35,412 bases of DNA, from positions 1 to 35,412 of the forward strand of contig PBLL01000038.1 of assembly GCA_002721755.1 (NCBI GenBank), read 5' to 3'. The notes below the pieces were generated by a model, which was not told the DNA's origin, made no database searches, and saw only the letters and a program-made list of their open reading frames with translations. The DNA is from Actinomycetota bacterium. Lineage in GTDB: Bacteria > Actinomycetota > Acidimicrobiia > Acidimicrobiales > MedAcidi-G1. Positions 22,872 to 26,975 of the stretch are shown one piece after another. Position 1 is the stretch's first letter, and every line of letters starts with the position of its first letter. A program made the position numbers and the translations under genes.

Positions 22872-24488
22872 CTAGGCCTCCGAAATATCCTCTTCTGGCA
22901 GAGTTGTATCAGCATCAACGATATTCGAATCGGTATCAGCAAACTCTGCATCAGGTGTAGCCTGAGCCGTCTTTGATGAGCCTTCAAACTGCTCTGTAAA
23001 AGCAGCTACGGCCGCTTCAAAAGCCTCTTCGTCAGCTACATTTCCAGATTCACGAATTTCAGTCAAGATTGATGCATGTCGTGTTCTAAACCAATCAAGT
23101 AGTTCTGCTTCAAACCGACTTACATCAGCTATATCAACACCATCTAGATGTCCTCTAGTACCAGCCCAGATAGATACCACTTGCTCTTCAACCAACAAAG
23201 GTGAATTTAGTCCCTGTTTTAAAAGTTCAGTCAAACGATACCCACGATCAAGCTGGGCTTGGGAAACTGCATCCAAATCAGATCCGAATGCAGCAAATGA
23301 CTCTAGTTCACGAAACTGTTGCAAATCTGATTTAAGAGTTCCCACTGCATTTTTCATTGCCTTAACTTGAGCTGCAGAACCAACTCGGGAAACAGAGATT
23401 CCTACATCAATTGCGGGTCTTATACCTGACTTGAAAAGGTCATCTTGGAGAAATATCTGACCGTCAGTAATAGAAATCACATTGGTCGGAATGAAGGCCG
23501 AAACATCACCTGCTTTAGTCTCAATAACCGGCAATGCTGTTAGTGAACCGGCTCCTTTATCATCACTTAACTTTGCGGCACGTTCTAAGAGCCTGCTGTG
23601 CAAATAGAAAACGTCCCCAGGGTATGCCTCCCTCCCAGGTGGACGACGAAGCAGTAAAGACATCTGTCGGTATGCCTCAGCCTGTTTCGATAAATCATCA
23701 TAAACAGCTAGAGCGTGTTCACCATTATCCATCCAGTGCTGACCAATTGCACAACCTGCATAGGGTGCTAGGTACTTAAAGGGAGCTGGGTCTGATGCTG
23801 GTGCTACTACTACCACCGTGTAATCCATAGCACCATGAGATTCTAAAACTGCGACATTTTGCGCAACAGTGGAAGCTTTCTGACCAATAGCCACATAAAC
23901 ACATTTCATTCCTTGGCCGGCTTGGTTGATGATCGTGTCGATTGCGATAGTTGTTTTTCCTGTTTTTCGGTCACCGATGATGAGCTCTCGCTGACCGCGT
24001 CCAATGGGCACTAGGGAATCTATTGCTTTGATTCCTGTCTGCATTGGTTCATGCACAGGTTTGCGTCCCATTATTCCAGGCGCCTGTATTTCCATACGTC
24101 TTGGTTCCGTGTTAGTTAAAGGACCTTTACCATCAATTGGTTCACCAAGAGCGTTTACCACGCGTCCTAACAAACCATCACCAACAGGCAAGGAAAGTAT
24201 GTCGCCAGTGGCACGGACCGTCTGACCTTCTTCTATATCATCAACCTCGCCAAGGACTACTGCTCCAATCGATCCCTCATCTAAATTCAGAGCTAATCCA
24301 AAAGTTCCGCTTTCGAACTGCAATAGTTCATTCACTGCCGCATCTGGCAGACCTGAAACTCTAGCAATGCCGTCTCCCACTTCGAGCACGCGTCCAACCT
24401 GACTTTGCTCCAAACCAGGTTCAAAACCTTCTAGGTTTTTCTGGATTGAAGCAGCTATGTCAGCGGTGCTGATTGTCAATTCAGTCAT
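22872..24488 (-). CDS. atpA: F1Fo ATP synthase alpha subunit with acidic C-terminal extension
   Basis: 538 residues. Alpha carries the non-catalytic nucleotide sites and forms the hexamer with beta. The P-loop is GDRKTGKT (172-179); position 175 is Lys where Gln is usual. [18 protein letters not shown] and the [16 protein letters not shown] and [17 protein letters not shown] blocks are intact. The conserved core ends about Phe501 (AAFTEQF). The last 37 residues form an extension with 11 acidic and one basic residue and no predicted structure. Mycobacterial AtpA has a C-terminal extension of similar size that suppresses ATP hydrolysis; whether this tail does so is inference. The start is ATG with AGAGAG 5 nt upstream. 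Confidence 0.97.
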
Positions 24489-24517: not shown

Positions 24518-25048
24518 CTACCGGAAATTCTCTCGAAGTTGGTTCAAACGACGACGGACACTCCCGTCGATAATGTCATCACCAATTTCTGTTACCAAAC
24601 CACCTATTACGGATGGGTCAATTACTACTTTTACTTCTACGTCTTTGTTCGTTGCTCCATTCAAAGCTGCAACCAATCTTTCTTTCTGCGCATCATCCAA
24701 TTCGACGGCAGATCGAACAGTGGCAACCGTCTTATTTCTCGAAGCTGCACTTCGTTCGATGAATGCGTCAACAATGCTGGAAAACCGCGAAGAACGCCCT
24801 GAAGCAACAATCATAGATACCAATGCCCTTGTTGTTGAGCTAGCCGATCCCCCCAAAAGATCCTCGACTATCTGTTGCCGACGCTCAACTGGTAAGGACG
24901 AATCATCTAAAGTCGCTTGAAGATTCTCATCTGAACTTAGTGCTTGTGAGAATCTAAATAATTCATCTTCAACAGTCGGTAAAACATCATCTGCTGCAGC
25001 AACAGCAAACAGAGCATCTGCATAACCAGCAATTGCATTATCAGCCAT
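24518..25048 (-). CDS. atpH: F1Fo ATP synthase delta subunit
   Basis: 176 residues. Delta joins the b dimer (stator) to the top of alpha3beta3. The N-terminal helical domain starts IAGYADALFAVA, matching the family Y-A-x-A-L-F pattern. The C-terminal part has the conserved VKVVIDPSVIGGLVTEIGDDIIDGSVRRRLNQLRENF, where G-G-x-x-x-x-x-G-D-x-x-x-D-G-S is the signature. It is a separate gene and not fused to a second b copy as in mycobacteria. The start is ATG at 25048, 2 nt after the atpF stop, with only a weak GGTAG upstream, so translational coupling is likely. Confidence 0.96.
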   Translation of the reverse strand: MADNAIAGYADALFAVAAADDVLPTVEDELFRFSQALSSDENLQATLDDSSLPVERRQQIVEDLLGGSASSTTRALVSMIVASGRSSRFSSIVDAFIERSAASRNKTVATVRSAVELDDAQKERLVAALNGATNKDVEVKVVIDPSVIGGLVTEIGDDIIDGSVRRRLNQLRENFR

Positions 25049-25050
25049 TA

Positions 25051-25821
25051 CTAGCTACCAGCCACTTCATCTATGTATTGATCCACAAGCCTTCGCTGAG
25101 CATCATCATCCAAACTACCTTGAACAACTTTCTCTGCAGCTCCAAGAGCAATTCCCGCAACTTCTGCTCTCAAATCTGCGATCGCTTGCTGCCTTGATGC
25201 TTCTATTTCATTTGCCGCTCGAGTTTTCATTTCAGCAATATCAGCTTCCGCTTTTGCTACCAAATCTGTACGTACTTGATCAGCTGCGCCTCTGGCTTCA
25301 TCAATGAGGCGTGATGCTTCATTTTTTGCATCTGCTAAGCGTGCTTCATAATCAGCATGTACATTCTGTGCATCTGTTTTTGCTTTCTCTGCTGCATCTA
25401 GATCATCTCGAATCTTGTCCGATCTAGCATCCATCGCTGCTTTAACTGCAGGGAAGCCCTTCTTGACCATAACTACAAATAAAATCAAGAAAGCCCCGCC
25501 ACCCCAAATTACCTCACTTAATTCTGGAATTATTGGGCTAGGTGCCTCAAGGCAACTTTCAAGTTTGTCTTCGTTTTTCTTTACCTTTTTCTTTTCATCT
25601 TCAGTTGCACCTTCCGAAGCATGAAGAGAATGAAAAAGGTGCTCAACACCGTGATCATGGTGACCATCATCATGGTGACCTTCTTCAGCTATGTGTTCAA
25701 GTTTTTCAACAATACAACTTCCAATGCTCTCGCCTGAAGCTGAAGCTGGTCCTGCAAAAAACAGCATCCCAACCATTGCAAAAAGCAACGAAAAGCACAG
25801 TTTGGTTCCTCGTCGTCTCAT
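25051..25821 (-). CDS. atpF: F1Fo ATP synthase b subunit with signal peptide and His-rich extracytoplasmic domain
   Basis: 256 residues, about 90 more than a standard b subunit. Residues 1-29 look like a cleavable Sec signal (MRRRGTKLC, hydrophobic core, PASAS). Residues 30-100 would be outside the membrane. They carry nine His within 43-67 (including HHDDGHHDHG), many Asp and Glu, two cysteines (Cys36, Cys90) and a Lys-rich stretch. Then follows the normal b subunit: PELSEVIWGGGAFLILFVVM (membrane helix about 105-121) and a long charged coiled coil (130-240), which forms the peripheral stalk. The start is ATG with AAAGGAAG at good spacing. The exported insert might bind Zn or Cu, or brace the a/c interface; function unknown. 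Confidence 0.93.
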   Translation of the reverse strand: MRRRGTKLCFSLLFAMVGMLFFAGPASASGESIGSCIVEKLEHIAEEGHHDDGHHDHGVEHLFHSLHASEGATEDEKKKVKKNEDKLESCLEAPSPIIPELSEVIWGGGAFLILFVVMVKKGFPAVKAAMDARSDKIRDDLDAAEKAKTDAQNVHADYEARLADAKNEASRLIDEARGAADQVRTDLVAKAEADIAEMKTRAANEIEASRQQAIADLRAEVAGIALGAAEKVVQGSLDDDAQRRLVDQYIDEVAGS

Positions 25822-25850: not shown

Positions 25851-26207
<357 letters not shown>

Positions 26208-26975
26208 CTAATGTTCTGCGTGCATCGAACCACCGATATAAACAGCAGTCAGAATAGTAAAGATAAAGGCTTGCAAAACAGAAACCAAAATCTCAAAACC
26301 TGTCATTAGTATGAGCATTGCAAAAGGTGCAGCTGCTCCCACATAACCGTTGTCCCACAAAGTCTGAGTGAGAATCGCAAATGTGACTAACAAAAGGTGT
26401 CCTGCAACCATGTTGGCCCACAGTCGAATAGCCAAAGAAAAAGGCCTAACAACAAATGTTGACACCAACTCGATTGGAGTAACAATTAGATATAAAGCTT
26501 TAGGAACGCCAGGGGGGAACAAGGAGTTCTTTAAGTAACCCCCAATACCTTGAGAACGGACACCCACAAAGTTATAGATAACCCAAACAACCAACGCCAA
26601 AGTAATGGGAACGGCCATTCTGCTGTTCGCCGGAAACTGTATTCCTGGTACTACTTCAAAAATATTTGAAAAAAGTATGAAAAAGAACATCGTCGTCAAA
26701 AAGGGCAGATACTTCTTCCCTTCTGGACCTATTGTCTCCATAACAACGGACTCTTCTACGAAATTGACTCCAGATTCAGCTACATGTTGCACACCAACAG
26801 GAACTAAAGATCCCCGTTGTTTCCCAGCAGATAAAAAAATTGCTGAGGTAATCAAAACTGCTGCCAAATAAATCAACACTGTCTTGTTAACAGCAAATAA
26901 TGAACCTGAAAAAAGTATGTCCGGCCAATCAAAAAGATGACTTACAGGTGGGAATTCCAAAGCGATAACATTCAC
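26208..26975 (-). CDS. atpB: F1Fo ATP synthase a subunit
   Basis: 255 residues, with five or six membrane helices. Subunit a forms the two proton half-channels against the c ring. The essential arginine is Arg184 in RPFSLAIRLWANMVAGHLL. LPFLTTMFFFILFSNIFEVVPG (90-111) and the last helix FEILVSVLQAFIFTILTAVYI, with the conserved Q-A-F-I-F, are characteristic. The C-terminal GGSMHAEH is the usual end. The start is GTG at 26975, with AGGAGA about 11 nt upstream and the atpI stop 2 nt before it. Confidence 0.97.
   Translation of the reverse strand: MNVIALEFPPVSHLFDWPDILFSGSLFAVNKTVLIYLAAVLITSAIFLSAGKQRGSLVPVGVQHVAESGVNFVEESVVMETIGPEGKKYLPFLTTMFFFILFSNIFEVVPGIQFPANSRMAVPITLALVVWVIYNFVGVRSQGIGGYLKNSLFPPGVPKALYLIVTPIELVSTFVVRPFSLAIRLWANMVAGHLLLVTFAILTQTLWDNGYVGAAAPFAMLILMTGFEILVSVLQAFIFTILTAVYIGGSMHAEH

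Follow-up and report, generated by a model that had tools for sequence, protein, structure and literature searches.

We observed that the atpF gene of a marine actinobacterium encodes a b subunit of the F-type ATP synthase with a new, class-specific outer module ahead of its membrane helix. Order- and class-wide searches of b subunits recovered the same plan, a signal followed by an exported Cys pair, in about 24 families of Acidimicrobiia, a class of marine and soil actinobacteria. We consider it fairly probable that AtpF is a genuine b subunit of the F-type and that its module is an exported hairpin, closed by a disulfide, that caps the outer face of Fo. Few components of the rotary ATP synthase have been studied as thoroughly as the b subunit, whose outer end is taken to be a short tail; an exported module with paired Cys, spread over this many families of one class, would be a new stator element. 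No description of a signal- or disulfide-bearing bacterial b subunit was found in the open-access literature.

The gene lies in a stretch of 35,412 nucleotides (hereafter the window) from a marine Acidimicrobiia lineage whose close relatives are MedAcidi-G1, Acidimicrobiaceae and Acidimicrobiales MAGs and single cells. It occupies positions 25051..25821 of the minus strand and codes for 256 residues, with its ATG at 25821, its stop at 25051-25053 and an SD-like AAGGAAG upstream of the ATG. The Pfam match to ATP-synt_B (PF00430) is confined to residues 110-233 (E=5e-28; 98.2 bits, cut-off 28 bits), and the N-terminal ~100 residues are therefore extra. Both this match, which covers the transmembrane helix and stalk, and the position of atpF in the minus-strand atp operon, between atpE (c subunit, 25851..26114) and atpH (delta subunit, a separate ordinary gene, 24518..25048), identify it as a b subunit. 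A short outer tail is usual for b subunits, though not obligatory; AtpF instead is predicted to export about 75 residues. Elsewhere in the operon, AtpA (22872-24488, minus strand) is 538 residues long with an acidic C-terminal tail.

Chloroplast b and b' precursors have an N-terminal peptide that is cleaved off, and the b subunits of Desulfobacterota and Geobacter presumably carry signal-like N-termini and His/Gly-rich linkers; to our knowledge the latter lack the Cys pair. No match to the exported Cys-paired segment was found in chloroplast b and b' (6fkf), with which AtpF would have presequence removal only in common. Bacterial F-type b subunits (PF00430; Bacillus PS3 6n2y, E. coli 6oqr, mycobacteria 7jg5/7njk) resemble AtpF in their single membrane helix, long cytoplasmic stalk helix, ATP-synt_B match and gene order atpE-atpF-atpH. 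However, the profile match begins at or near the membrane helix in the solved bacterial b chains, and none of them matches the signal-plus-Cys extension. Searches of Pfam and of PDB sequences likewise gave only chance-level matches, with no known domain or relative of the extension.

Next to ATG1, the frame offers in-frame starts at TTG12, ATG16 and ATG19, and then only at residue 112, within the membrane helix. Since there is no start codon between residue 19 and the membrane helix, a standard short b subunit cannot be made from this frame. A downstream start, which the earlier note had named as a refutation, was thus ruled out. SD-like sequences also precede most starts of the extended AtpF in the host family and the order. 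Within the genus, simple pairwise counting gave dN/dS values of about 0.46 (signal), 0.18 (exported segment) and 0.025 (transmembrane helix and stalk); the exported segment is therefore translated and constrained, yet fast-evolving and far freer than the stalk. A spurious reading frame was ruled out by this value together with the presence of the segment in frame in 30/30 family members read.

The first 28 residues (25738..25821, minus strand, as are all parts of the gene that follow) have the make-up of a Sec signal peptide: a positive n-region, a hydrophobic core, and small residues at -3/-1 of the predicted cleavage site (MRRRGTK...GPASA/SGES). Relatives are alike, and the signal peptide proposed in the earlier note is borne out by a signal-like N-terminus in all 30 host-family members read. 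We infer from these sequences that a cleavable Sec signal directs export of the mature N-terminus. Were the signal to stay uncleaved as a second membrane helix, b would span the membrane as a hairpin of two helices, and the Cys segment would be the loop on the outside; in favour of this, the hydrophobic core is always present, and the higher dN/dS of the signal than of the other parts leaves its detailed sequence free. Since the small-x-small (AxA-type) motif is conserved across families, together with a short h-region, and since each b contributes one membrane helix in solved bacterial complexes (PMC9244403), we regard retention of the signal helix as quite improbable.

Behind the signal, residues 29-103 (25513..25737) form an acidic segment with a predicted helix-loop-helix (33-47, 58-66, 74-91). 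Its first Cys, Cys36 (codon 25714..25716), stands where predicted helix 33-47 begins, and its second, Cys90 (25552..25554), is followed by a Pro-rich linker of fixed length (residues 91-103, LEAPSPIIPELSE; 25513..25551) that leads to the transmembrane helix (about residues 104-121; 25459..25512). The cytoplasmic stalk helix (residues 122-256; 25054..25458) has no Cys, and the only other Cys of the protein, Cys9, is inside the signal peptide. Between the pair lies a His-rich loop (residues 43-67; 25621..25695) with nine His (His43, 49, 50, 54, 55, 57, 61, 64 and 67), within which a 15-nt tandem duplication (25648..25677) codes for an HHDDG/HHDHG repeat. The nine His and both Cys described earlier were thus recovered in the 256-residue minus-strand ORF.

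We then compared the extension across relatives. In 30/30 host-family AtpF read, the signal was followed by a Cys at position 36 and by another placed four residues ahead of a PxPI motif. In an automatic tally, in which the signal was called by a rule blind to Cys, 58 AtpF had a signal-like start and 67 were short. Of the former, 57/58 had exactly two Cys in the exported part; the remaining one, L138, is a short b subunit whose hydrophobic start gave a false signal call. None of the 58 had a Cys in the transmembrane helix or stalk, and 66/67 short AtpF had no N-terminal Cys. The distance from the second Cys to the membrane helix was 12 residues in 57/57, and the gap between the pair ranged from 12 to 53 residues. 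The shortest form of the extension occurs in L041 (ECIHILEEGGSVDDCHEAPSPILPE) and L038, and longer forms are like that of L084. Four longer N-termini had no recognised signal: L150 is an f7 protein, and L032, L124 and L133, which are start-choice errors, have the Cys pair once read from a better start. The comparison of N-termini across Acidimicrobiia upholds the Cys pair. The earlier note had made the extension's value depend on its not varying between close relatives; we found that the His loop does vary and that conservation holds for both Cys, for the signal peptide and for the linker from Cys to membrane.

Short b subunits without N-terminal Cys occur in other Acidimicrobiia lineages, so the cap would be dispensable for the ATP synthase as such, and the extension was absent from the genomes read of other classes of the phylum. 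On a tree built from the transmembrane helix and stalk only, the trait required 12 changes, versus 43 with shuffled labels; a single gain followed by several losses is a plausible reading of this tree, whose deep branches are weak. The absence from several lineages and the rapid evolution of the loop would both suit a purely topogenic device, in which the signal ensures that the protein inserts N-out and the exported segment survives as a neutral remnant. Such a remnant would not, however, retain exactly two Cys and a linker of precisely 12 residues in 57/57 sequences, and we consider this explanation very unlikely.

Genomes of family f7 have two b-type genes, and in L048 and L150 one of these has a pre-membrane Cys pair without a recognisable signal. 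L133 (G161:C56) has two tandem atpF, each with a signal peptide and a Cys-pair extension. The G173 assembly holds AtpF with and without the extension on separate contigs (L130, L135; C184, C81), with 5% contamination, and may represent two organisms.

The His residues behave differently from the Cys. The share of His in the exported segment is 8.5% in the host family versus 2.2% elsewhere in the class, with 3-9 per protein in every host-family member read and 0-3 outside the family. Such enrichment, together with the nine His of the window AtpF, would fit a His/Asp loop that binds Zn, Cu or Ni, or that acts as a proton buffer where the entry half-channel opens. Across the host family, however, there is no invariant His column of the kind expected for conserved ligands in a His-rich metal domain. 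The number and position of His and the length of the loop vary within the genus, and length changes even between sister species. With no invariant His column and this within-genus variation, the conserved feature is the Cys frame and not the His, and the rest of the class keeps the same frame with 0-3 His. We therefore rejected a conserved metal site, and a functional role of the His/Asp loop as such appears unlikely. Instead, the 15-nt tandem repeat in the window suggests that the His-rich part is a variable, lineage-specific loop expansion. The stretch between the two Cys would then be a permissive loop, in which His and acidic residues have built up in the host marine family. Where the earlier note had proposed a metal-binding or disulfide-braced cap, the second half is supported as a possibility, with two Cys that are paired throughout the class, and the metal site finds no support; that reading was correct for the Cys but laid its weight wrongly on His, and the extension is more general than it could show.

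The occurrence of two Cys in extended forms and none in short ones, together with export and the lack of other Cys in the mature protein, points to a bond between them, and a disulfide between Cys36 and Cys90 is probably formed in the exported segment. We also counted Cys in 800 kb of the host genome (G000) and found a lean to even numbers in exported proteins that would favour such bonds: among exported proteins with 1-8 Cys, 16 had an even and 5 an odd number, compared with 124 and 113 for cytosolic proteins, the exported set coming from a crude predictor with several false positives. Instead of closing one chain, the Cys might form intermolecular disulfides (C36-C36' and C90-C90') that lock the b2 dimer outside the membrane. 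A b2 homodimer is expected from the single b gene found in the host genome, and Cys that come always as two or none are compatible with such links. Gain and loss of the Cys together, though their spacing is free, is nevertheless what is expected of an intrachain pair. The two b membrane helices of solved structures also touch subunit a at separate sites, which speaks against such cross-links. We give this arrangement little weight and retain the intrachain bond as the preferred reading.

Surveying the enzymes of oxidative folding, we found neither VKOR nor a DsbA/MdbA-type Thioredoxin_4 protein in 25 genomes of the host family (G000-G024), of which the host genome is 78% complete and several relatives are over 95%. 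The DSBA-family matches that were read had no CxxC active site or signal and were not oxidase-like. These negative results weigh against the bond. No pattern linked the extension to the presence of VKOR. VKOR/MdbA-dependent exported disulfide proteins are described in the envelope of Actinobacteria (PMC9974433, PMC12421883). Such proteins share with AtpF the exported disulfide, which is here predicted, and differ from it in that no such enzyme was found in the host family. The bond in AtpF may be formed by an uncharacterised enzyme or by oxygen. These data raise the question by what route disulfides are made in those marine Acidimicrobiia where neither VKOR nor a DsbA/MdbA-type enzyme was found. 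It is also conceivable, though we doubt it, that the cap is redox- or metal-responsive and adjusts proton entry or stator stiffness, with the Cys pair oxidised by an undescribed pathway of the family.

To describe the shape of the segment, we used AlphaFold with 12 sequences, which gave helices at 33-47, 58-66 and 74-91, followed by the long transmembrane and stalk helix. For a shorter family form, helices were placed at fragment positions 5-19 and 31-41, with Cys at fragment positions 8 and 40. Confidence for the exported segment was low (pLDDT about 48-62 for most block means), and at this low confidence Cys36 and Cys90 would stand at helix ends that a hairpin would bring together.

Taken together, a mechanism can be proposed in which the Sec signal peptide is cleaved and mature AtpF begins outside the membrane. 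An acidic helix-loop-helix would be closed at its base by the Cys36-Cys90 disulfide and joined to the usual membrane helix by the fixed 12-residue Pro-rich linker. Since a single b gene was found in the host genome, b2 would carry two such caps. The two copies would lie next to subunit a at the outside of Fo as a rigid cap, which may brace the stator by holding the two b helices in place at their outer ends, either to one another or to subunit a.

The extension likely contacts AtpB, the a subunit (26208..26975, minus strand). The AtpB of the window has no Cys, and no matching Cys in subunit a was common to the extension-bearing genomes. Outside Acidimicrobiia, in other actinobacterial families, we observed loci (L094-L096, L098, L099, L105, L112 and L113) in which the outer N-terminus of AtpB carries Cys before TM1, usually two (e.g. 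TEIFDYTKNCLFGSGSYCVTRVSFW). These Cys are possibly an independent brace on the same face of Fo.
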